From Myxococcales bacterium (GTDB lineage: Bacteria > Myxococcota_A > Polyangia > Polyangiales > Polyangiaceae): a stretch of 32,074 nucleotides of DNA. Under the pieces are notes generated by a model. That model saw nothing but the letters and a program-made list of their open reading frames with translations, made no database searches and had not been told where the DNA came from. Within the stretch, counting starts at the first letter, position 1. Every line of letters begins with the position of its first letter. A program made the translations under genes and the position numbers. Below are positions 10,469 to 31,314 of the stretch, piece after piece. The stretch covers positions 1-32,074 of the forward strand of contig JAAFHV010000092.1 of NCBI GenBank assembly GCA_013297655.1. Direction: 5' to 3'.

Positions 10469-10486
10469 CAGGGAGCGATGCATGCC

Positions 10487-10506
10487 AGGTCGCGCCGTCG
10501 CGACCT
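10487..10506. terminator. Possible hairpin before addB (no T-run)
   Basis: A perfect 8-bp inverted repeat AGGTCGCG / CGCGACCT with a 4-base loop lies in the 87-bp gap between the GspG-like lipoprotein gene and addB. There is no T-run on either side, so it is only a candidate for a factor-dependent terminator or a protein-binding site. Confidence 0.3.
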
Positions 10507-10555
10507 CGGAAATCGAACGGGCCCGGGGCCTGCGAGAGCGTGTAGTCTCCGCGCC

Positions 10556-13500
10556 GTGACAGCCCCCCACGAGCCGCCGCGCCTCTACACTTCGGCGTCC
10601 AACGGCGACCGCGTCGCGTTCGCGGCGAGCGTGCTCGTGGACCTCCCGAAGGACGCGAACGTCACGCTCGTCACGCCGAGCCTCGAGGCCGCCGCGCACG
10701 TGTCGCGCGTCGCGAGCCTTCAGAAGAGCGCCACGTTCGGGATCGTGCGCACCACCCTCGCCCTCGAGATCGCCTCGATCGCGCGGCCGGAGCTCGCGCG
10801 ACGAGGGCTCGTGCGCGCCTCGTCGCTCACGCTCGAGGCGGTGTGCCAGAGGCTCGCCCGCGATCCGGCAGCCGACCTCGACTATTTCGCCGAAATTGCG
10901 GCATTTCCGGGCTTTGCGCGCGCACTCGCGCGCACCTTGTCGGACCTTCGCCTCGCCGAGATTTCTCCCGCCGACACGAGCCTCGCAGACCACCGCGCCG
11001 GGAAGAGCCTCGCGAAGCTGGCCGCGTCGTTCGCCGCTGCGCTCTCGGATCTCGGTCTCGCCGACGAACGTGCCACGCTCGACGCGGCCTGCGCCGTGCT
11101 CGCCAACGCACGCGCGCCGAGGCTCGTCGTGCTCGTCGACGTGCCGATCCGCGGTGTCGCGGAAGAGATGTTCGTGCGTGCGCTCGCGGAGAGGGACTCG
11201 CTCGTGTTCGCGGTTCCTTCGTTCGACGAGGCGACCCTCGCGCGCCTCGACGCGATGGGCGCAGTGAAGGTGGAGCCTCCCGTCCCCTTCCCCCGCGGGC
11301 CGCTTCATTTGCTGAAGGAGCGGCTCCTCGGTGAGTCCGAGCACGAGCCGCCCCCGAAGGAGCTCACGAGCGCGGTCCGCATTCGCTCGGCGCCGGGCGA
11401 GAGCCGCGAATGCGTCGAAATCGCGCGAGAGATCGAGGTCTCCGCGAAGGCGGGAATACCGTTCGACCGGGTCGCGATTCTGCTTCGATCGCCCGAGATT
11501 TACGTGCCGCACGTGGTGGAGGCGCTTCGTCGCGCGCGGATCCCGGCCCACTTCGCGCGCGGGCTTCGCCTCCCCGATCCTTCCGGGCGCGCGCTCCTCG
11601 CGCTCCTCGCCTGCGCCGCAGAGGGCCTCTCCGCGCGCCGCTTCGCGGAGTACATGTCGCTCGGGGAGACGCCGCGCCGCTTCGGTGACGCACCCCCGCC
11701 GCCGAAGCCCGGCACGTTCGCCCCCTCGGACGACGAGTCCACGACGATCGCCCTCGAGCGCGTCGACGACGGCGATGGCGATGGCGACGAGGCCACGCCC
11801 GCGAGCACCGACGGAGAACCGATCGACACCGGGACCGTCGCCGCGCCCTACCGCTGGGAGCGCTTGCTCGTCGAGGCGGCCGTCATCGGAGGCAAAGATC
11901 GTTGGGAGCGACGCCTCGCCGGCCTCCTCGCGTCGATGCGGGAGAAACTTGCACTCTACACGCGTGAAGAGGATCCCCGCGCAGAGGGCGCAGCGAAGGA
12001 GATCGCGTCGCTCGAGGCGCTGCGAGGCTTCGCGCTTCCGCTCTTGGACGATCTCGCGGCCCTCGGGACCGAGACGTCGTGGCGCGGCTGGATCGTGCGG
12101 CTCTCCGCCCTCGCGACCCGCGCGCTTCGAAAACCGGAGCGTGTGCTCGCGGTGCTCTCGGAGCTCTTTCCACTCGACGACGACGCGACCCTCGGGCTCT
12201 CGGAGGTGCGCGCCGTGCTCGAGCCGCGCCTGTCCGACGTGCGTCAACCCGCGACCGGACGCCGCCTCGGCAAGGTGTTCGTCGGCGCGATCGAGGACGC
12301 ACGCGGCCTCTCCTTCGACACCGTGTTCGTCCCCGGGCTCGTGGAGAAGGCGTTCCCCAAGAAGGTCCTCGAAGATCCGCTCTTCCTCGACGCCGCGCGA
12401 AAAGCGGTGTCCCCCGCCCTCGCGACGAACGACGATCGCTCGCGCGACGAGCGACGCATGCTGCGCCTCGCCACCGGCGCCGCCGACCGCCTCGTCGTGT
12501 ACTCGTACCCACGCCTCGACGCAGACTCGGGTCGCCCGCGCACGCCTTCGTTTTACGGCCTCGAGATCTTGCGCGTGGCCACCGGCGACGTGCCTTCGTA
12601 CGAGAACCTGAAGAAGGTCGCGAACACGGCGTCGCGCGCGCGCCTCGGCTGGCCCGCGCCCGACGAGCGGGAGGACGCGATCGACGAAGCGGAGCACGAT
12701 CTCGCCGTGCTCGCCGCGCTCCTCGGCCACGACGAAGCGAAGACCGTCGGCGCCGCGCGTTATCTCCTCGGCAAAAACGAGCACCTCCGCCGCGCGCTCT
12801 ACTCGCGCGCGTACCGCTGGCGAAAAGGAAAATACGTGGCCCAGGACGGCCTCGTCGAGGTGCCCGCCGCCTCCGCCGCGCGCGCCGCCCTCGACCTCCA
12901 CTCGACGACGGCGCGAAGCTTCTCGCCGACCGCGCTCCAGAACTTCGCCGCCTGCCCGTACCGCTTCTATCTCTCTGCCCTCCTCAAGCTCTCGAAGCGA
13001 GAGGAGCCAGCGCCACTCGAAGAGATCAACCCCCTCGACCGCGGCACGTTGGTGCACGAGGCGCAGTTCGTGTTGCTCACGAAGCTCCGCGCGGAAGGCC
13101 TGCTCCCGGTGAACGCCGAGCGCCTCCCCGCCGCGGAGGCCTACCTCGAGACCGTGCTCGCGGAGGTCGCCGGGCGCCACGAAGACAGACTTTTTCCAGC
13201 GATCCCACGCGTATGGGAAGACGGCATCGCGCGTGTCACGGCCGATCTTCGCGAGTGGCTCCGGCGCATGGCCGACGATCCGGCGTGGATCCCCTCGCAC
13301 TTCGAGCTCTCGTTCGGGCTCGTCGAGCACGACGACGGGCGCGACGCGGCGAGCGTGAAGGAGCCGGTCGCCCTCGACGCGGGCATCCTCATGCGCGGCT
13401 CGATCGACCTCGTGGAGCGGCGCTCCGAGGACGGCGCGTTCCGCGCGACCGACTACAAAACGGGCAAGGTGCGCGCGACGCAGGGCTCGATCGTGAGCGG

Positions 13501-13837
13501 CGGGAAGATCCTTCAGCCCGTGCTCTATGCCCTCGCGGTGGAGAAGATCCTCGCCGGCGCGAACGTGGTCGGCGGGCGGCTCTACTACTGCACGTCGGTA
13601 GGCGACTACACCCCCATCGACGTGCCCCTCGATGGCCTCGCGCGGAGCGCCGCGAAGACGGTCGCGGACGCGGTGACGGACGCGCTCACGAAGGGCATGC
13701 TCCCGGCGTCACCAGCCGCAAAGGAATGCATTTATTGTGATTTTCGCGATGTATGCGGACCCTACGAGGAGGTCCGAACGAAGAAACGCGATCCCAAGGC
13801 GCTGCCGCTGCTCGCCGCCGTGAGGGCTCTCCCATGA
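10556..13837 (+). CDS. addB: AddB-like subunit of helicase-nuclease (PD-(D/E)XK nuclease, Fe-S)
   Basis: A 1093-residue protein from a GTG at 10556. It has the outline of AddB: an N-terminal UvrD-like region in which no complete Walker A is seen (TSASNGDRVAF stands at that place), a helicase-like middle, and a C-terminal RecB-family nuclease with TDYKTGK (about residue 966). The iron-sulfur cluster ligands are visible as Cys800 (AACPYRFY) and Cys1058, Cys1061 and Cys1067 (CIYCDFRDVC), the CX2CX5C arrangement that staples the nuclease domain. Together with AddA it would process double-strand DNA ends for RecA-dependent repair. An acidic low-complexity loop (DDGDGDGDEA) lies near residue 405. 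The stop overlaps the addA start by 4 bp (ATGA), showing translational coupling. The earlier ATG at 10478 would add an Arg-rich tail across the hairpin. Confidence 0.88.
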   Translation: MTAPHEPPRLYTSASNGDRVAFAASVLVDLPKDANVTLVTPSLEAAAHVSRVASLQKSATFGIVRTTLALEIASIARPELARRGLVRASSLTLEAVCQRLARDPAADLDYFAEIAAFPGFARALARTLSDLRLAEISPADTSLADHRAGKSLAKLAASFAAALSDLGLADERATLDAACAVLANARAPRLVVLVDVPIRGVAEEMFVRALAERDSLVFAVPSFDEATLARLDAMGAVKVEPPVPFPRGPLHLLKERLLGESEHEPPPKELTSAVRIRSAPGESRECVEIAREIEVSAKAGIPFDRVAILLRSPEIYVPHVVEALRRARIPAHFARGLRLPDPSGRALLALLACAAEGLSARRFAEYMSLGETPRRFGDAPPPPKPGTFAPSDDESTTIALERVDDGDGDGDEATPASTDGEPIDTGTVAAPYRWERLLVEAAVIGGKDRWERRLAGLLASMREKLALYTREEDPRAEGAAKEIASLEALRGFALPLLDDLAALGTETSWRGWIVRLSALATRALRKPERVLAVLSELFPLDDDATLGLSEVRAVLEPRLSDVRQPATGRRLGKVFVGAIEDARGLSFDTVFVPGLVEKAFPKKVLEDPLFLDAARKAVSPALATNDDRSRDERRMLRLATGAADRLVVYSYPRLDADSGRPRTPSFYGLEILRVATGDVPSYENLKKVANTASRARLGWPAPDEREDAIDEAEHDLAVLAALLGHDEAKTVGAARYLLGKNEHLRRALYSRAYRWRKGKYVAQDGLVEVPAASAARAALDLHSTTARSFSPTALQNFAACPYRFYLSALLKLSKREEPAPLEEINPLDRGTLVHEAQFVLLTKLRAEGLLPVNAERLPAAEAYLETVLAEVAGRHEDRLFPAIPRVWEDGIARVTADLREWLRRMADDPAWIPSHFELSFGLVEHDDGRDAASVKEPVALDAGILMRGSIDLVERRSEDGAFRATDYKTGKVRATQGSIVSGGKILQPVLYALAVEKILAGANVVGGRLYYCTSVGDYTPIDVPLDGLARSAAKTVADAVTDALTKGMLPASPAAKECIYCDFRDVCGPYEEVRTKKRDPKALPLLAAVRALP

Positions 13838-16800
13838 CCGCGACCACCACCACGAACGCGAACGCGCCGAACCCGCTCGAAGATCAAGACGCACGCACCG
13901 CGATCCGCGAGGAGCTCGACACCACGCTCGTGGTCGAGGCCTCCGCTGGCGCAGGCAAAACCACCGAGCTCATACGGCGCATCGTCGCGCTCCTCGAGTC
14001 CGGCCGCGCGAAGCTCTCCACCCTCGTCGCAGTCACGTTCACCGAGAAGGCCGCCGGCGAGATGAAGCTCCGCCTCCGGACCGCCCTCGAGCGCGCACGC
14101 CACTCGGCCCGCACCGCCACCGACCGCGACGATCCCGCCGCCACCGACCGCGCCACGCGTCTCGATCTCGCGATCCGCGAGCTCGAGGTCGCCCACATCG
14201 GCACGATCCACGCGTTCTGCGCCGACCTCTTGCGCGAGCGGCCGGTCGAAGCGCGCATCGATCCTCTCTTCGCCGTCGCGGACGACGCAGAAGCGCGGCG
14301 CCTCTTCGGCGAGGCCTTCGAGCTCTGGTTCCAGCGCGTGCTCGGCGCGCCACGCGAGAGCTACCCCGGCGCCCACCGCGTGCTCCGTCGAAAGATGCGC
14401 GACGACGGCCCGCGCGGGGCGCTCTTCGAGGCAGGCTACTCGCTCCTCGATCAACGCGACTTCGACGCGCCGTGGACGCGGCCTCCGGTCGACCGCCCGA
14501 AAGAGCTCGATCGCCTCGTGAACGAGCTCCGTGATCTCGGCGCCCTCGCCGAGCGCGCGGACGACAAACGCTCCGATCCGAACGACGGCGCGTGGCTCTA
14601 CATGTCGCTCGAGGCGGTTCGTAAGTTCGTCGCCGAGCTCGATCGCAAAGAAGCCACCCGCGGCGGCGAGCGCGACCACGACGGCCTCGAAGCCGATCTT
14701 CGCGGCCTCGCCCGCGAGCGCCTCTGGGGGTGGAAGGGCTGGGGCCGTTTCTACGAAAAGTCGACCCAGCTCCTCCGCGACGACGTGCTCGCGCGGCGCG
14801 CCCTCGTGAAGGGCTCCCTCGACGCGTACCTCACCCTCGCCGACGCCGATCTCGCGGCGTGCCTGCGCGAAGAGCTGCGCCCCCTCCTCGCCGACTACGA
14901 GCGAAAAAAAGCCGAGGCCGGCAAGCTCGACTTCCTGGACCTGCTCCTCGTCACGAAGAGCCTCCTCGACACGCGCCCGGACGTCCGTCGCGATCTACGT
15001 GCACGGTACACGCACCTCTTGATCGACGAGTTCCAGGACACGGATCCCCTCCAAGCGCACGTGCTCCTCTCCCTCGGGCGCGCGGCCGACGACGACGGCA
15101 ACGAAGGGCCCACGGTGGCGGGGAAGCTCTTCTTCGTCGGCGATCCGAAGCAGAGCATTTACCGGTTCCGCCGCGCCGACGTCGCGTTCTACGAGTCGGT
15201 GAAGCGCGATCTGGTCGCCTCGGGCGCGAAGCTCGTCCACCTCTCCACGAGCTTCCGCTCGGTGCCCGGGGTGCAGAGCCTGGTGAACGCGTCGTTCCTC
15301 GCCGCGATGATCCCGAACGCGGAGGGCTCGCAGGCGACGTACGTCCCGCTCTCGGGTGTTCGCACGAACGATCCCGAAGCGCCGCCTCCGGTGATCGCGC
15401 TGCCGGTGCCGCGCCCGTACTCGACGAAGACGGGCAAGGTCACGAACTGGTCGGTCGACGACTCGTTCCCCGACGCGGTCGGCGCGTTCGTCGATTGGCT
15501 CCTCCGCGAGAGCAAGTACACGCTCCGCGATCCGAGCGGGCGCCGCGTGAACGGGAAGCCCGCGCGCATTCCTCTCGACGCTTCGCACGTGTGCCTGCTC
15601 TTCAAGCGCTTCTCGGCCTACGGCGGCGACGTCACGCGGCCCTACGTGCGCGCGCTCGAGGCGCGTCGGATCCCGCACGTGCTCGTCGGCGGGCGCGGTT
15701 TCCACGAGCGCGAGGAGGTGCTCGCCCTTCGTAACGCCGCGAACGCCATCGAGTTTCCGTTCGACGAGCTCTCGGTCTACGCCACGTTGAAGGGCCCGCT
15801 CTTCTGCTTCGAGGACTCCGCGATCTTCGGTTACCGCACGGCGCACAAGTCACTCGACCCACGGCGCGCCGCGACGAGCTCGGCTTCGAGCGCGGCCGTC
15901 GTGCTCGACGAGCACTCCGCGAAGGTCGGCGAGGGCTTGGCGATCTTGAAGGAGCTCCACGCGAGCCGAAACCGAAGGCCTTACGCCGACACGCTCTCGG
16001 AGCTCCTCGAGCGAACGTCCGCCCACGCCGGTTTTGCGTTCTGGCCGACCGGCGAGCAAGCGCTCGCGAACGTGCTCCGGGTGCTCGACATCGCGCGACG
16101 CACCACGTTCGCGACCGGGATGCACTCGTTCCGCGGCTTCGTCGACAAGCTCATGGAAGACGCGGAGCGAGGACGCGTGGAAGAAGCGTTCGTCGTCGAG
16201 GAGGGCTCCCAGGGCGTGCGGATGATGACCGTTCATCGCGCGAAGGGGCTCGAATTTCCGATCGTCATCCTCGTCGATCCGACCGCGCGTCCTACCCACA
16301 CCGAGCCATCGCGCTACGTCTCGGCCGAAAAGCGCATCTTCGCGGCCCCCCTCTGCGGCGCGGCCCCGTACGAGCTCTCTCGCGAGCGCGAGCAGGTGCT
16401 CCGTCACGACTACGAAGAGAGCGTGCGCCTCCTCTACGTGGCGACCACCCGCGCGCGCGACGTGCTCGTCGTCCCGGTCGTCGGCGACGGTCCGCTCGAG
16501 GACAGTTGGATGGCTCCCCTCGTGCCCGCGGTGTACCCCGCGCGCCCTGGTATGCCGCTGCCGATCGCGCCGCCGGTGCCCTTCGGGAAAGACAGCGTGC
16601 TCGACCGCCCCGATCACGCGCGCGTGACGTCGACGGTGGTGCCCGGATTTCACGCGCCGCGGGCCGGCGATCACGAGATCCTCGTCTTCGATCCGAAGGT
16701 TCTCTCGCTCGGCAAGGAAGACGAAGCGGGGCTTCGCCAGCAGAAGATCCTCGCCGCCGACGAGCTCGGTCTCGGGGACGAGAGCATCGCGCGGTTCGAC

Positions 16801-17391
16801 GCCTGGGTGGCGAAGCGCGCCGCGGCGCACGAGAGCGCCTCCAAGCCGAGCGTGCGGGTCGAGACGCCCACCGAGCTGAAGGAGCGCGCGACCGAGACTG
16901 TCGCCGTCACCGTCACCCGCACCTCGACGCCGCGGGAAGGCCGGCCACACGGAAAACGCTACGGCGTGCTCGTTCACGGCCTGCTCGCCGAGGCCCCCTT
17001 CGACGGCACTCATCACGAGGCACTCCCCGCCCTCGCGCGCGGTCTCGGACGTACGCTCGGCGCGACGGACGACGAAATCGCGTTCGCCACGAAGGCGGCC
17101 GCGGTCGCGCTCGACCACCCGCTCCTCGCCACCGCGCGCGCCTCGACCGACATCCGGCGCGAGGTAGGCGTCACGCAGGTGCTCGAGAGCGAAGGAGGGA
17201 CGACCCTCGTCGAAGGCGTCATCGACCTCGCTTTCCTCGCGCCTGACGGAACGTTCACCCTCGTCGACTACAAGACGGACGTGAACGAAGCCCCGCGTCT
17301 CAAGGCCTACGAGGCTCAGCTCGCCATCTACGCGCGCGGGATCCGCGAAGCGACCGGCAAAGACGTGAGCGCGGTGCTCCTCCTCGTCTAA
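13834..17391 (+). CDS. addA: AddA-like helicase-nuclease subunit
   Basis: A 1185-residue UvrD/Rep-type superfamily 1 helicase fused to a C-terminal nuclease. Motifs in order: Walker A EASAGAGKT (about residues 35-43), AVTFTEKAAGEMKLR (motif Ia), LLIDEFQDTD (Walker B, about 396), FVGDPKQSIYRFR (motif III, about 437), MMTVHRAKGLEFPIVILVD (motif V, about 800) and LLYVATTRARD (motif VI, about 868). The RecB-like nuclease has EGVIDLAF and LVDYKTD (about 1145), then QLAIYARGI. All ATPase and nuclease residues appear present. The ATG overlaps the addB stop, so the two subunits are made together in equal amounts. The product would be a cytoplasmic motor-nuclease acting on double-strand ends in recombinational repair. 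The downstream lipoprotein gene starts 49 bp later with no clear terminator between. Confidence 0.93.
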   Translation: MTATTTTNANAPNPLEDQDARTAIREELDTTLVVEASAGAGKTTELIRRIVALLESGRAKLSTLVAVTFTEKAAGEMKLRLRTALERARHSARTATDRDDPAATDRATRLDLAIRELEVAHIGTIHAFCADLLRERPVEARIDPLFAVADDAEARRLFGEAFELWFQRVLGAPRESYPGAHRVLRRKMRDDGPRGALFEAGYSLLDQRDFDAPWTRPPVDRPKELDRLVNELRDLGALAERADDKRSDPNDGAWLYMSLEAVRKFVAELDRKEATRGGERDHDGLEADLRGLARERLWGWKGWGRFYEKSTQLLRDDVLARRALVKGSLDAYLTLADADLAACLREELRPLLADYERKKAEAGKLDFLDLLLVTKSLLDTRPDVRRDLRARYTHLLIDEFQDTDPLQAHVLLSLGRAADDDGNEGPTVAGKLFFVGDPKQSIYRFRRADVAFYESVKRDLVASGAKLVHLSTSFRSVPGVQSLVNASFLAAMIPNAEGSQATYVPLSGVRTNDPEAPPPVIALPVPRPYSTKTGKVTNWSVDDSFPDAVGAFVDWLLRESKYTLRDPSGRRVNGKPARIPLDASHVCLLFKRFSAYGGDVTRPYVRALEARRIPHVLVGGRGFHEREEVLALRNAANAIEFPFDELSVYATLKGPLFCFEDSAIFGYRTAHKSLDPRRAATSSASSAAVVLDEHSAKVGEGLAILKELHASRNRRPYADTLSELLERTSAHAGFAFWPTGEQALANVLRVLDIARRTTFATGMHSFRGFVDKLMEDAERGRVEEAFVVEEGSQGVRMMTVHRAKGLEFPIVILVDPTARPTHTEPSRYVSAEKRIFAAPLCGAAPYELSREREQVLRHDYEESVRLLYVATTRARDVLVVPVVGDGPLEDSWMAPLVPAVYPARPGMPLPIAPPVPFGKDSVLDRPDHARVTSTVVPGFHAPRAGDHEILVFDPKVLSLGKEDEAGLRQQKILAADELGLGDESIARFDAWVAKRAAAHESASKPSVRVETPTELKERATETVAVTVTRTSTPREGRPHGKRYGVLVHGLLAEAPFDGTHHEALPALARGLGRTLGATDDEIAFATKAAAVALDHPLLATARASTDIRREVGVTQVLESEGGTTLVEGVIDLAFLAPDGTFTLVDYKTDVNEAPRLKAYEAQLAIYARGIREATGKDVSAVLLLV

Positions 17392-23396: not shown

Positions 23397-25289
23397 GTGC
23401 GGTACTGCGAGATCTGCTGCGCGTCGTTCCAAGAGCGACGAACGTGCCCGCGCGATGGCATCCCCACGCGCGTCGACATCGGCGATCCGCTCGTGGGCGC
23501 GGTGCTCGGCGAGCGCTACCGCGTCCTCGATCGGATCGCCTCGGGCGGCATGGGCCACGTCTACCGCGCGGCGCATACGCGAATGGCCTGTGTCTTCGCG
23601 GTGAAGGTCCTCTATGGCGACCTCGCCTACGACGGCACGATGCGCGCGCGGTTCGAGCGCGAGGGGGAGGTCGCGAGCCTCCTCCAGAGCCGCTACATCG
23701 TGCGCGTCGTCGACTTCAGCCAGTCGGACTCCGGCCTCCTCTACCTCGCGATGGAGTACCTCGACGGCGAGACCTTGTTCGACACGGTCGAGCGACACGG
23801 CCCCCTCGCCCCCGCGCGCGCGCTCACCCTCGCGATGCAGGTCGCGATCGGCCTCGCCCACGCCCACGAGCGTGGGGTCGTTCACCGTGATTTGAAGGGC
23901 GAAAACGTGATCGTGGTCCGCGAGGACGACGACGAGATCCCCAAGATCCTCGACTTCGGGGTGGCGCGCTTGCGCACCCGCGACACCGAGCCCTCGGCGG
24001 GTCGCCCCGCCCTCACCGCTGCGCGCGACGTGCTCGGGACGCCCGCATACATGGCCCCCGAACAGTTCGCCGGCGGCGAGGTCGACGCGCGCGCCGATCT
24101 CTACGCGCTCGGGGTCATGCTCCACACGCTCGTGACCGGGCAGCTCCCGTTCGACTCGAGCAGCACGATCGACCTCATGCGCCAGCACCTCACCGAGCCG
24201 GCGCCGTCGCTCGTCTCCCGCGTAGGCTCGTCGCCCCTCGTCGAGGCGATGGAGCCGCTCCAGGCCAAGCTGCTCGCGAAGAAGCGCGACGATCGCTACG
24301 GCAACGCGCGCGACTTCATCGCCGACGCGCGCGCGATCCTCGAACATAGGCCACGGTCGCGCACCGAGATCTCCGACGTCAGCGCGCGTCGATCGGGTGC
24401 CTCGATCCGCGCCGCTGCGCCCGTGCCCTCCGTCGACGGGAGCCTCCTCGAGGCGATCCGTGGCGCCATCGTGTTGGGCGCACCAACGTACAATTCCGGA
24501 GATCATTCGGGATGTTACGAGATTTACCGCGGGGCCGCGATGGCCCAGATCGCGCGGACCAACCCGCCGCTCGGGCTCGCTGAACGCGCGCGCCTCGAGG
24601 TCGCCCTCGGCGACGCGGCGAAGGCACGAGGGCCCACCCTCGCGGCGTGGACCTTGCGCCACGCGTTCGACGATCTGACGACCGCAGTGACCGCGCCGAC
24701 GCTGCCGCCACGAGATACCGCCGACGCTGCGATCGACGTGTTCCAAGCCGTGAGCGCGCGCGTCTATGCGCTCGGGCACGCCGACTGCGCGTACCGGTTC
24801 CATGGCGTGTTCGCGACGCTCTTGCGCGAGGGACTCACGCAGCTCGCGAGGCGCAGCGACGACGTGTCGCTCCTCGACGCGTGCCTGCGAGACCTCCACC
24901 ACGCGAGCGCCGACACCGGGCCGACGCTGGTCGCCGAGGCCCTCGAACGCATCCGAGGGGAGCGCGCCGGGTCACGGCCGCGCGCCCTCGAGACGGGCCC
25001 TACCGTGGTTGGTCCTCCTCCGACGCGCGTGCCCGAGGTGGTGCGTCAAGCGATGCTCCGCGCCATCAAGGCGGGTGTGCCCGCGTACAACGCGGGCGAT
25101 CACGCGACGTGCGCCCGCGAGTACCAGCGCACCGCCGAGGCGATCGTAGGCGAAACCAAGCGCAACAAGGACACCCAGGTCATCGCAGCGTGGCTCGATC
25201 CCATCACCACGCGCGCCAAGGCGGCTTCCCCACACGACGCCGCGTGGATGCTGCGTCATGCCTTCGACGCGCTCCTCGGACTACCCTGA
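23397..25289 (+). CDS. Hanks-type Ser/Thr protein kinase with repeated C-terminal domain
   Basis: A 630-residue kinase from a GTG at 23397 (AGGA seven bases upstream). The N-terminus has a Cys cluster (Cys4, Cys7, Cys8, Cys17 in CPRDG), a partial zinc ribbon. The kinase domain (about residues 41-310) is complete: glycine loop ASGGMGHVY, Lys70 (FAVKVLY), Glu in the C-helix, HRDLKGEN with catalytic Asp165, DFG at 186-188 and TPAYMAPEQ at 215-223. HRDLKGEN replaces the commoner HRDLKPEN. There is no transmembrane helix, so it is cytoplasmic. The C-terminal half contains two clear copies (about 349-430 and 547-630) and one weak copy (about 443-520) of an unfamiliar domain. It is the first gene of a block with an Hsp70 (57 bp downstream) and a J protein, suggesting it regulates or is regulated by that chaperone pair. 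Confidence 0.93.
   Translation: MRYCEICCASFQERRTCPRDGIPTRVDIGDPLVGAVLGERYRVLDRIASGGMGHVYRAAHTRMACVFAVKVLYGDLAYDGTMRARFEREGEVASLLQSRYIVRVVDFSQSDSGLLYLAMEYLDGETLFDTVERHGPLAPARALTLAMQVAIGLAHAHERGVVHRDLKGENVIVVREDDDEIPKILDFGVARLRTRDTEPSAGRPALTAARDVLGTPAYMAPEQFAGGEVDARADLYALGVMLHTLVTGQLPFDSSSTIDLMRQHLTEPAPSLVSRVGSSPLVEAMEPLQAKLLAKKRDDRYGNARDFIADARAILEHRPRSRTEISDVSARRSGASIRAAAPVPSVDGSLLEAIRGAIVLGAPTYNSGDHSGCYEIYRGAAMAQIARTNPPLGLAERARLEVALGDAAKARGPTLAAWTLRHAFDDLTTAVTAPTLPPRDTADAAIDVFQAVSARVYALGHADCAYRFHGVFATLLREGLTQLARRSDDVSLLDACLRDLHHASADTGPTLVAEALERIRGERAGSRPRALETGPTVVGPPPTRVPEVVRQAMLRAIKAGVPAYNAGDHATCAREYQRTAEAIVGETKRNKDTQVIAAWLDPITTRAKAASPHDAAWMLRHAFDALLGLP
24441..25286 (+). repeat. Protein-level repeat: two clear and one degenerate copy in kinase tail
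   Basis: Copy 1 contains GAPTYNSGDHSGCYEIYRGAA and, about 50 residues later, AAWTLRHAFDDL. Copy 3 contains GVPAYNAGDHATCAREYQRTA and later AAWMLRHAFDAL. The middle segment has ARVYALGHADCAYRFHGVF at the matching place. The shared pattern is YNxGDHxxCxxxY and AWxLRHAFDxL. The copies differ at DNA level, so this is an old duplication. Confidence 0.75.
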
Positions 25290-25346: not shown

Positions 25347-28300
25347 GTGAGTGTCGTAGGCATCGATCTCGGGACCACCAACACGGTCGTGGCTTCCATG
25401 CGGTCTGGCCGCGTGCACGTCCTCGCGGACGAGTCAGGCCAGCGGCTCTTGCCGTCGGTCGTCTCGTTCCATCCTAACGGCGAAGCGCTCGTGGGCAATC
25501 CCGCGAAGGCACGACGGGCGATGGATCCGCGCAACACGGTTGCGAGCCACAAGCGCCTCCTCGGCCGCTCGTGGAACAGCCCCGAGATCGTGCAGGCGCG
25601 TACCCGCGTCCCGTACGAGCTTCGCGAAGGGCCGGCGCAGGGGCCCCTCGTGCACGCCCGCGGGAAGGACTACACGCTCCCCGAGATCAGCGCGTTCGTC
25701 CTGAAGCGCGCGAAGCAAATCGCCGAGACCGCCCTCGGCGAATCGATCATGCGCGCGGTCATCACGGTGCCCGCGCACTTCAACGAGCTGCAGCGCGCCT
25801 CCACGAAGGTGGCCGGTCGTGTCTCCGGGCTCGAGGTCCTCCGCATCCTCAACGAGCCCACCGCGGCCGCCCTCGCGTACGGGCTCGGTCGTGTCGGCAG
25901 CGAGCGCATCGCCGTCTACGACTTCGGTGGCGGCACGTTCGATTGCACCCTCCTCGACTTGAACAACAACGTGTTCGAGGTGCTCGCCACCGCCGGCGAC
26001 ACGTTCCTCGGCGGCGACGACATCGACGCGGCGATCGCCGAGCGGATGGCCGAGCGGCTCCTCAAGCAGCATCGCATCGACGCGAAGGCCGACGCAGGCA
26101 CGTGGGAGCGCCTCCGCGCCGCAGCGGAAGAGCTGAAAATGACGCTCTCGACGCGCGATCAGTCGCAGGTCAAGGTGACCGACCTCGGCTACGGCGTGGG
26201 CGGCTCGTCGCTGTCGCTCGCCTTCGCGATGACCCGCGGCGAGCTCGATCAGCTCATCCAGCCGCTCGTCGAGCGCACCTTCCGCGTCACGCAAGACGCC
26301 CTCGCCCTCGCGCGCCTCACGCCCACGTCGTTCGACAAGGTCGTGCTCGTGGGCGGCAGCTCGCGCATCCCGCTCGTGCGGCGCCGCGTGGAGGCGTTCT
26401 TCGGCGCCCCGCCGATGGACCGCATCAACCCCGACGAGGTCGTGGCCATGGGCGCCGCGATCCAAGCCTCGGCCCTCACCGATGGCGCGGGAAAACGCCC
26501 CATTCCAGCGCCGCCTCCGGTTCCGTCGGCGAACCCGCACACCCTCCGCGGCCTGCAGGACGAAGAGTTCACGTCGACCCAAGTGCGGCCCCCTTCGTCG
26601 GCCTCCGCACCGCCCTATGCGAAGGGCTCGGCGCCGCCTCCGCTCGGCACTCACGACTCCAACCCGCCCTATGCGTCGTCGCGTTCGGCCCCTCCGCCGC
26701 TCGGGGGCGCGAACTCTGGTCCGCCCGCCTCTTCGCCGTCGCCACAGTCGGCGCGTTCTCTCGATCTCTCCGGCGCGATCCACGATCCGCGGCGCGACGA
26801 CGAGCCGAGCATTCCCTCGTTCACTGGCGCGCCAGTGCCCCCTCACTCCGAGTTCTACGAGGCCGTCACCGGCGCCGTCCGACGCGACGAGGTCGAGGAC
26901 TCCGAAGCCGACTGGGCCACCCCCGAGGAAGACGAGGCCACCCTCGCCGGCACCACCGGCTCCGGCGCCCCGCCCCCGCCGCTCGCCGCACAAACAGGCG
27001 AGTTTGGCACCCTCGACGAGCCCCCGTCGCTCGTCAGCTCGATCAGCGGCCAGGGCATGGCGAGGGTCCCCAGCTTCGACCTGGGCGACGCGAGCGCGCT
27101 TCCTGGCGGCGCGTTCGGCGAGGTCCGCGACCTCAGCTTGATCTCCACCTCGGGCATCTCCGGCATCTCGTCCGGGGGCCTCCCGACCGACTCCGAGTAC
27201 GACACGAACGAGCAGCCCGCGCCGGTGCTCTCCATGAAGGGCGCGCCGCCACCGAGCATGCCCGAGGTGCCCTTCGGTCCGATGACCGAGTTCACTCCTC
27301 GGCCGGTGCAAAGCCCCGTTGTTCCGTCGAAGGCGCCCCCGAAGACCGCCCCGCTCGCGGCGCGGAAAGATCCGCGCGCGGAGCCGCTCGACCCGAAAAA
27401 GACAACCGATCCGTACGGGCCGTTCGCGCCGAACCGCACGAGCCCGATGCCGGGCGTGCCCACCACCGCGCAGGGCCAGAATCCGCACAAATCGACCGAT
27501 CCTATGGGCGCCGCGCCGAAGCCCCACCGCACGACCGACCCGATGGGCGGGCGGCCGCACGGCGCGACGCAGCCCCTCCTCGCCGCGAACGCGCCCCCTC
27601 CGCAGGCGGTCATTCCTACGTCACGGCCGCCCGCGCTGCCGACACAGCAGGTCCCTGCCGACGCGTTTCGCTCCTCGCCGCCGCCAGCGGCCACGGTCGC
27701 GAGCGCACCCCCGCTCGGTATGGGCGTGGGCGTTGGCGCAGGTGTTGGCGCAGGCGGCGGCGCGAGCGCGTTCGCGGGTGCCTCTGGCGCGTACCCGGCG
27801 GCGGCGGGCTCGGGCCCCTTCCCCGCGCAACAATCGGGTGGGTTTCCGGCCGTAACTCCGGACTATCCCATGCAACATGCACAGATTCATGCACCGTCGG
27901 GAGGGCCACCGCCGCTGCCGGGACACGGCTCCACACAGCCGGTGATGAGCCACCTCGGGCAGGGCATGGGCTCGCCGATGGGACAGGGCATGCCAATGCA
28001 ACCCCCGATGGGTCAGGGCATGCCGATGCAACCCCCGATGGGTCAGGGCATGCCGATGCAACCCCCGATGGGTCAGGGCATGCCGATGGGCATGCCGATG
28101 GGCCCGATGGGCATGCCGATGCCGCACATGCCGATGCAACCCCCGATGGGGATGCCGGTGCTCGTCGACGTGACACCGAGGGCGCTCGTGGTCGAGACGG
28201 CGGGGGGCTTTTGCGACACCGTCATCCCGCGCAACGCGAAGATCCCGTGCGAGCGCACCCGCAAGTTCTCGACCGGCCGCGACATGCAGACCACCGTCCG

Positions 28301-28577
28301 TGTGCGCGTCGGCCAGGGAGAAAACCCTGTATTCGCGCAGAATACGTTCCTCGGCGAGGTGGAGCTCAGCGGCCTTCGCCCCGCTGGACGCGGTGAGGTC
28401 ACCGTCGCGGTGACGTTCGAGCTCGACGCCGACGGCACGCTCAAGGTGCGCGCCGCCGATGGCCAAACCGGGCACGAAGCACGCGCGACACTTCGCCTCC
28501 TCGGCGTGGCCGACGAAGAATCGGTCGTCGACATGATTCAGCGCATGGGCGATCCCATGCCAAATATGAGAGTCTGA
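25347..28577 (+). CDS. Hsp70/DnaK-like chaperone with very long low-complexity insert
   Basis: A 1076-residue protein, far longer than DnaK (about 640). GTG start at 25347 with AAGG five bases before. The ATPase domain (residues 1-380) is intact: GIDLGTTNT, AVYDFGGGTFD, GDTFLGGDDID and VLVGGSSRIP. Residues about 381-935 are Pro/Gly/Ala/Ser/Met-rich and low in hydrophobic residues, so probably disordered. At about 936 the normal interdomain linker appears as MPVLVDVTP, followed by a recognisable substrate-binding beta domain (VIPRNAKIPCERTRKFST, VRVGQGE, VTFELDADGTLKVRA). The protein ends about 25 residues after this, so the helical lid is missing. Substrate release by such a protein should differ from DnaK. 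It lies between a Ser/Thr kinase and a J protein, the natural Hsp70 partner. It is not the housekeeping dnaK, because no grpE or canonical dnaJ is near; this is inference. Confidence 0.93.
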   Translation: MSVVGIDLGTTNTVVASMRSGRVHVLADESGQRLLPSVVSFHPNGEALVGNPAKARRAMDPRNTVASHKRLLGRSWNSPEIVQARTRVPYELREGPAQGPLVHARGKDYTLPEISAFVLKRAKQIAETALGESIMRAVITVPAHFNELQRASTKVAGRVSGLEVLRILNEPTAAALAYGLGRVGSERIAVYDFGGGTFDCTLLDLNNNVFEVLATAGDTFLGGDDIDAAIAERMAERLLKQHRIDAKADAGTWERLRAAAEELKMTLSTRDQSQVKVTDLGYGVGGSSLSLAFAMTRGELDQLIQPLVERTFRVTQDALALARLTPTSFDKVVLVGGSSRIPLVRRRVEAFFGAPPMDRINPDEVVAMGAAIQASALTDGAGKRPIPAPPPVPSANPHTLRGLQDEEFTSTQVRPPSSASAPPYAKGSAPPPLGTHDSNPPYASSRSAPPPLGGANSGPPASSPSPQSARSLDLSGAIHDPRRDDEPSIPSFTGAPVPPHSEFYEAVTGAVRRDEVEDSEADWATPEEDEATLAGTTGSGAPPPPLAAQTGEFGTLDEPPSLVSSISGQGMARVPSFDLGDASALPGGAFGEVRDLSLISTSGISGISSGGLPTDSEYDTNEQPAPVLSMKGAPPPSMPEVPFGPMTEFTPRPVQSPVVPSKAPPKTAPLAARKDPRAEPLDPKKTTDPYGPFAPNRTSPMPGVPTTAQGQNPHKSTDPMGAAPKPHRTTDPMGGRPHGATQPLLAANAPPPQAVIPTSRPPALPTQQVPADAFRSSPPPAATVASAPPLGMGVGVGAGVGAGGGASAFAGASGAYPAAAGSGPFPAQQSGGFPAVTPDYPMQHAQIHAPSGGPPPLPGHGSTQPVMSHLGQGMGSPMGQGMPMQPPMGQGMPMQPPMGQGMPMQPPMGQGMPMGMPMGPMGMPMPHMPMQPPMGMPVLVDVTPRALVVETAGGFCDTVIPRNAKIPCERTRKFSTGRDMQTTVRVRVGQGENPVFAQNTFLGEVELSGLRPAGRGEVTVAVTFELDADGTLKVRAADGQTGHEARATLRLLGVADEESVVDMIQRMGDPMPNMRV
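27978..28097 (+). repeat. 30-bp in-frame tandem repeat (MGQGMPMQPP)
   Basis: Three full units of 30 bases starting at 27978, 28008 and 28038, and a fourth partial unit from 28068, encode MGQGMPMQPP each. The units are almost identical at DNA level (GGACAG against GGTCAG in the first, CCAATG against CCGATG), so the array is recent or kept uniform. A more degenerate Met/Gly/Pro stretch continues to about 28155. Such an array can change length by slippage without breaking the frame. Confidence 0.9.
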
Positions 28578-28584
28578 CCTCCGA

Positions 28585-29148
28585 ATGGACGCTGAGGCTC
28601 TGGCCGGCTGGCTCGCCGTGCTCGACAAGCTCTCGTATTACGACATCCTCGGGGTCGGTACGCGGGCCGCGCACGACGACCTGCGACGCGCGTTCCACGT
28701 GTTCGCGAGCACCTTCCATCCCGACGCCCACCACGCGCGCTCCCCGGAAGAACGACGCGCCGTCGACACGATCTTCAAGCGCGGCGCGGAGGCGTTCCGG
28801 GTGCTCTCCGAGCCTCACCTCCGCGCGCAGTACGACCAAGCGCTCACCCTCGTGACCGACCAGGGCAGCGCACGCGCCGCCGTCGCGACCCGCACCGTCG
28901 CCACGTCCGCCAGCATCGCTCCTGCTCCCACCCGTCTCATCGACTCGGTGCGGTCCCCCGGCGCGCGACCGTTCGTGCTCCGCGCGGAGGAGCTCGCTCG
29001 CAAAGGCGATTTCAAGCAGGCGAAGCTCCAGCTCACGATGGCGCTCCACATGGAACGCGGCAACGCGCGGCTCGAAGCCTTCGCGAACGAGCTCGACGCA
29101 GGCTCGAAGAAACAAGCCGTCGACGAGAAGAAGAACTGGAAGAAGTGA
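28585..29148 (+). CDS. J-domain protein, partner of the upstream Hsp70
   Basis: A 187-residue protein starting 7 bp after the Hsp70 stop, so almost certainly cotranslated. The J domain spans about residues 16-85: YYDILGVGTRAAHDDLRRAFHVFA, here shortened to its main helix, then the invariant HPD at residues 45-47, and EAFRVLSEPHLRAQYDQAL. It lacks the Gly/Phe region, zinc fingers and substrate-binding domains of DnaJ, so it is a class C J protein that would stimulate the ATPase of an Hsp70 rather than bind clients widely. After an Ala/Thr/Ser linker, residues about 130-170 (RAEELARKGDFKQAKLQLTMALHM) look like one tetratricopeptide unit, a possible docking helix pair. The C-terminus is Lys-rich. 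No start ambiguity is visible. Confidence 0.92.
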   Translation: MDAEALAGWLAVLDKLSYYDILGVGTRAAHDDLRRAFHVFASTFHPDAHHARSPEERRAVDTIFKRGAEAFRVLSEPHLRAQYDQALTLVTDQGSARAAVATRTVATSASIAPAPTRLIDSVRSPGARPFVLRAEELARKGDFKQAKLQLTMALHMERGNARLEAFANELDAGSKKQAVDEKKNWKK

Positions 29149-29261: not shown

Positions 29262-31109
<1,848 letters not shown>

Positions 31110-31314
31110 CGGGCGAGCACGCCGCTCGAGCAAACCGCGCCCCAACTTGGGTGGTCGCCGAGCACGGCCGAGAGGGTACCAAGGACGCTCGCGCACGTTA
31201 AGCTTCCTGCCCGCGACCGAGACGACGACGGCCAGCGCGGCGCTCCGCGGGCGCTTTTTGCGTTGGATCCCGCGTCATTGCGACGACGAGCTCGAGCGCG
31301 GAGAGCGCGTCCGC

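Follow-up and report, generated by a model that had tools for sequence, protein, structure and literature searches.

Nature of the kinase tail

One Ser/Thr protein kinase encoded in the window (the whole stretch of 32,074 nucleotides that was analysed) ends in a long tail, in which a preliminary description made from the letters had noticed repeats of an unfamiliar domain of about 80 residues. The question raised by this locus is what this domain is and what it may do for the kinase. The features concerned are listed below.

23397..25289, + strand: Ser/Thr protein kinase gene, 630 aa (open frame with a GTG start; four orthologues aligned over its length)
23517..24302, + strand: protein kinase catalytic domain, residues 41-302 (Pfam Pkinase PF00069, E 1e-44; HRDLKGEN and DFG read)
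24441..24686, + strand: domain copy 1, residues 349-430 (profile score 84.3 bits; four helices in the tail model)
24708..24968, + strand: probable, strongly diverged middle copy, residues 438-524 (four helices of low confidence; in-register profile alignment)
25038..25283, + strand: domain copy 3, residues 548-629 (profile score 73.8 bits; AlphaFold2 pLDDT 97.1, four helices)

The protein belongs to the Hanks-type Ser/Thr protein kinases according to both its Pkinase domain, which scores 153.3 bits against a cut-off of 31.7, and its catalytic motifs HRDLKGEN and DFG. Beyond approximately residue 340, no acceptable match was obtained in Pfam or NCBIfam. Because no membrane helix was seen by eye between the kinase domain and the tail, the tail should be cytosolic.

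Copies 1 and 3 are homologous copies of one domain of approximately 80 residues. The segment YNSGDHSGCYEIY starts at kinase residue 365 and YNAGDHATCAREY at residue 564, and AWTLRHAFD at residue 417 is matched by AWMLRHAFD at residue 616; these motifs lie where the preliminary description had placed them (residues about 349-430 and 547-630). The local alignment score between the two copies is 119, compared with a mean of 26.9 and a maximum of 64 in 1000 shuffles, and both copies carry the signature of the family, A-I-x2-G-A-P-x-[YF]-N-x-G-[DN]-x3-C-x3-Y ... A-W-x-[LM]-R-x-A-F-D, over approximately 80 residues. As the two copies are among the profile's own rows, their profile scores are partly circular as evidence of membership, and independent support comes from the copy-to-copy alignment. 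In a profile search of the genome to which the window belongs, nothing besides the two copies in the kinase passed E 0.001. A recent duplication from copy 1 to copy 3 is not favoured: the two are not paired in a tree of 79 copies, although 42 of the 76 inner branches of this tree are open.

A search with the full-length kinase in 289 genomes of the class, with four candidates scored per genome, yielded three whole-length kinases among the matches listed, L138 (53%), L139 and L140 (47%), and a fourth orthologue (L156) was found with a profile of the kinase copies (A5) in 108 genomes of the family. The four orthologues come from two other genera of the same family as the window, so that the kinase with both copies was seen in 5 of the 108 family genomes, own included, and in three genera. 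Copies 1 and 3 are both present in all five kinases of this type. In 15 further genomes of the 108, the ORF with the domain has one copy only and lacks the kinase motif HRDLK.

The segment between the two copies is probably a decayed, much diverged copy of the same domain, as had been suggested earlier. Together with its orthologues, it aligned in register over 61 columns in a profile-profile comparison (E 0.0056, probability only 6.5%); when the columns were permuted 100 times, one permutation reached this score. Its length is similar among the kinase orthologues, and the AlphaFold2 model of the tail places four helices in it, with pLDDT below 50 over roughly two-thirds of them. While the register and the predicted helices are in favour of the earlier suggestion, the likeness is weak in single-sequence scores: the alignment score of 39 against either copy was equalled or exceeded by 30 (copy 1) and 17 (copy 3) of 1000 shuffles, and the profile score of -0.4 bits was exceeded by 10 of the 1988 shuffles reported (2000 made). 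In addition, the Cys of ALGHADCAYRF is kept in just two of the five kinases, the window's included, and this part of the likeness is therefore not to be leaned on.

Predicted fold

The domain is predicted to fold as a compact four-helix bundle, in line with the helical packing that had been raised as one option. AlphaFold2 modelled copy 3 from 35 aligned rows with a pLDDT of 97.1 and a pTM of 0.87, with helices at positions 2-19, 23-41, 45-62 and 66-81, and the tail model contains four helices for copy 1 (residues 348-366, 370-386, 394-408 and 413-432). A Foldseek search of the PDB listed no significant relative (best E 0.93); designed bundles, FliS and MIT domains were near the top of the list, and the best hit in BFVD had an E-value of 1.3. 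VIA-align gave Z scores of approximately 7 to 8.3 with 3c18, designed bundles, p130Cas (5w93), FliS (6gow) and cytochrome b562 (9tmp). The overall arrangement is thus similar to that of generic four-helix bundles (Z 7.3-8.3 over 78-84 residues for 3c18, 5w93, 6gow and 9tmp), but such Z scores are common for helical bundles, and sequence identity to these structures is only 8-12%.

Conserved residues of the domain

Conservation was assessed using the 79 copies that remained after 88 had been aligned to the profile and nine with >30% gaps or >80% identity to a kept row had been dropped. Gly13 (78 of 78 filled), Ala68 (78 of 79), Arg72 (77), Tyr29 (76) and Asp76 (74) are kept as often as Cys25 (74) or more, followed by Gly20 (73), Trp69 (72) and Asn18 (73 of the 78 filled). 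The preliminary description had proposed that His and Cys at fixed positions could bind a metal or haem-like ligand, and had named their lack of conservation as evidence to the contrary. This lack applies to the His at position 22, which is kept in only 28 of the 79 non-redundant copies, and not to the Cys.

Cys25 is replaced by Ala, Thr or Ser in five copies. Two of these are worn first copies (L010 and L012), two (L030 and L086) keep most of the remaining signature, and that in L092 has diverged elsewhere too; as nearly all copies used to build the profile carry the Cys, such Cys-less copies are possibly under-counted. Among copies 1 and 3 of the five kinases, the Cys is present in 10 of 10 and the His in 7 of 10, with replacement by Lys in copy 1 of L156 and by Pro in copy 3 of L139 and L140. 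An invariant pair of His and Cys ligands, as a metal or haem sensor would have, is thus not found, and no second Cys- or His-rich column was seen among the conserved columns.

A helical-wheel estimate separates two groups of positions. In helix 2, Cys25 (at about 30 degrees) and Tyr29 both point to within 30 degrees of the hydrophobic direction (computed without Cys25), and the His position is placed likewise. The Cys is thus probably buried, which suggests a structural role. For Trp69, Arg72, Asp76 and Asn18, the angle to the hydrophobic direction of the respective helix is 76-142 degrees, suggesting that they form a conserved set outside the core.

Distribution of the domain family

When GTDB contigs were scanned with copy 3, a search limited to close relatives, six planctomycete loci were identified. 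Five of them (L008 to L012) contain three copies in tandem, the first of which is worn (13-33 bits), and the last of the three in L012 ends early in frame. Profile searches, of the kind proposed in the preliminary description, extended this range. In the phylum of the window, taken to be Myxococcota from the kinase-rich genome and the preliminary description, a profile from a 12-copy alignment (A1) found the domain in 30 of 329 genomes; one from a 35-copy alignment (A2) found it in 54 of 294 Planctomycetota genomes, the latter count including the centre genome G348, a positive known beforehand. Both counts are probably lower bounds, as only part of each genome's first-look candidates was scored. 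In a control set of 2492 ORFs, which came mainly from loci fetched for the family and thus tests specificity and not frequency, the real profile matched 74 ORFs, and three column-permuted profiles and one reversed profile matched none.

No family in Pfam, NCBIfam or PHROGs matches more than 1 of 35 copies, which agrees with the initial impression that the domain is not assignable to a named sensor domain. RskA_N of Pfam matched 1 of the 35 copies at E 0.00087 and none of the others, and was taken as a chance match. Sequence searches of the PDB were judged in the same way: an 18-residue match of the tail to designed TIM barrels had E 0.0017, but no single stretch passed by itself, and the family profile gave nothing better than E 0.24. 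Plasmids contained no match to the kinase tail or to the copies of two relatives, and a search of IMG/VR with copy 3 returned no relative. No such domain is named in the literature covered, outside which most subscription journals and preprints fall. By sequence, the domain therefore appears to represent a family that is not named in Pfam, NCBIfam or PHROGs as searched here, defined by a profile and a confident predicted fold and spanning at least two bacterial phyla.

Proteins carrying the domain

The ORFs of 16 relatives (L007, L008, L009, L010, L012, L013, L021, L028, L029, L035, L062, L082, L087, L091, L093 and L097) were scanned for partner domains with Pfam; the remaining ones were read by eye only. 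On these other carriers, the domain is usually present in a single copy and may precede, follow or separate other domains. Families above their cut-offs were Trypsin_2 in L021 and CIA30 in L029 and L035, all from the window's phylum, and, in planctomycetes, CIA30 in L087, Fasciclin in L062 and L087, Bac_globin in L091 (three stretches) and L093, and Pkinase in L097. L097 is a distinct, apparently membrane-anchored kinase in which a membrane helix (by eye) and one domain copy were seen, the copy being followed by TPR-like sequence. Below the cut-offs, SOUL was found in planctomycete L062 (25.8 bits versus 27) and TPR in planctomycetes L007, L082 and L097, the TPR-like segments of L007 and L082 following the domain. 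No family exceeded its cut-off in L008, L009, L010, L012, L013 or L028.

HtrA/Deg proteases carry PDZ domains at their C-termini. The trypsin-like relatives in the window's phylum (L021 by Pfam, others by eye) similarly carry the unnamed domain at the C-terminus, but no PDZ match was detected in L021, the one such protein scanned. Two other architectures were recorded. The planctomycete ORF L091:622-3828 (+) has one domain copy followed by three bacterial-globin domains. L028:568-2148 (+) and two other members of family f36 in the window's phylum, L034 and L036, have two domain copies after an N-terminal part that appears TIR-like by eye, for which no Pfam family scores above its cut-off in L028.

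Kinases and proteases thus share the family with proteins of globin or adhesion type, although it lacks a consistent match in the copies of Pfam, NCBIfam and PHROGs searched. In one respect it is ordinary, being one more small helical accessory domain on a bacterial kinase; what is unusual is the breadth of the sharing and the partners involved. The binding target of one copy would hint at those of others, including copies in the many kinases of such bacteria, which are poorly understood.

Possible roles of the domain

From the architecture of its carriers, we consider the chances about even that the domain is a protein-docking or regulatory module, in this case in the tail of a cytosolic kinase. 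The tail would be an array in which two intact copies flank what is probably a decayed one; this array may bind a partner or substrate and thereby direct the catalytic domain to its target or control its activity. The association of the domain with partners of unrelated chemistry favours such a general binding role. A comparable layout is described for Hanks-type Ser/Thr kinases of Planctomycetota and myxobacteria with C-terminal TPR or WD40 arrays (PMC11032199); these likewise carry, after the Pkinase domain, arrayed small modules whose function is mostly unknown. The modules found here differ from those in that they show no consistent TPR match, are predicted four-helix bundles, and are common to trypsin-like, globin and fasciclin proteins.

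The main rival to docking, possible though on the unlikely side, is a small-ligand sensor, in which Asn18, Trp69, Arg72, Asp76 and Tyr29 would form a pocket for a common metabolite whose binding alters the kinase. These residues are about as strictly conserved as the core and several lie off the hydrophobic face, and the domain is fused to kinases, proteases and domains that appear to be exported, a pattern often shown by sensor modules. However, the PDB searches gave no convincing solved relative, and buried salt bridges and helix caps also yield invariant polar residues. The Asn/Trp/Arg/Asp set could equally line a ligand pocket or belong to a polar network buried in the bundle. A more specific version, which we hold to be improbable, is a promiscuous sensory module in which Cys25-Tyr29 and Asn18/Trp69/Arg72/Asp76 bind one common ligand; the globin and SOUL-like partners suggested a redox- or tetrapyrrole-related one. 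If true, this sensory module would be coupled to intracellular kinases as well as to extracellular proteases and haem proteins. No greater credence is given to the idea that the tail serves dimerisation or oligomerisation only, without an external partner: small bundles arranged in tandem at the C-terminus of a cytosolic kinase would fit, as would conserved residues outside the core, but the single copies on other carriers would need to oligomerise too.

The remaining two readings are less probable still. An open array of TPR type, with each copy made of two stacking helical hairpins, is very doubtful. It was prompted by the spacing G-x3-[YF] ... C-x3-Y, which resembles the conserved positions of TPRs, and the TPR-like segments after the domain in L007 and L082 also speak for it. 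However, no Pfam repeat family matches more than 1 of the 35 copies, the only TPR-named one being TPR_P4H at E 0.16, and a known helical-repeat family, which the preliminary description had considered, did not emerge from Pfam. Four helices are predicted per copy, and the structures listed by Foldseek and VIA-align are mostly closed bundles, the best aligned ones being four-helix bundles. One TPR chain is in the Foldseek list, at rank 39 (E 4.5) and behind FliS and several MIT domains, none of these rows being significant. TPR membership is not supported on these grounds, although a fold missing from such lists is not thereby excluded. The solenoid reading concerns the fold and is compatible with docking, and the likelihoods given here therefore overlap. 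Least credible is a sensor that would bind metal or haem through the His and Cys in GDHxxC. The near-constant Cys and the partner domains of three scanned relatives (bacterial globins in two, the SOUL-like segment in one) fit it, but the loss of His from most copies, the Cys-less copies with most of their signature intact, and the location of both positions on the hydrophobic face led us to reject it as the main reading. Docking is more likely than metal holding.

Gene neighbourhood of the kinase

The kinase gene is followed by the three genes listed here.

25347-28577, + strand: Hsp70 homologue (nucleotide-binding domain and conserved C-terminal part separated by a Pro-, Gly- and Met-rich spacer of ~550 residues)
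28585-29148, + strand: DnaJ-domain protein (7 bases after the Hsp70 gene; pair kept in relatives of the family)
29262-31196, - strand: second Ser/Thr kinase (Cys-rich start and probable coiled-coil tail, both by eye)

The Hsp70 gene starts 57 bases past the end of the kinase gene, an adjacency that suggested an Hsp70 partnership or a chaperone-docking tail. A search with the DnaJ protein gave matches in 31 genomes, and eight loci were fetched around DnaJ relatives. None of the eight had a match to the kinase at E 1e-8 beside the Hsp70-DnaJ pair (the upstream DNA ends at the contig edge in L129 and L133), and no Hsp70 match was found beside the kinase at three of the four orthologues (L156 left out; L149 with ~2.2 kb downstream), which lie in other gene surroundings. 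The partnership was therefore rejected, and, judging from these loci, the adjacency is probably not functional. When seven neighbouring proteins of the window were compared with the DNA around the three orthologues, only the second kinase was matched, through its kinase domain, and none of the seven was a conserved neighbour that would name a partner.

Two further features of the window were observed. The Hsp70 spacer contains a 30-base tandem repeat at 27975-28088, and relatives of this Hsp70 keep both ends with spacers of other lengths. Upstream of the kinase, two overlapping genes at 10478-17391 (+) encode PD-(D/E)XK nuclease and UvrD-type helicase domains (Pfam) and presumably resemble the AddB/AddA pair (AddAB).
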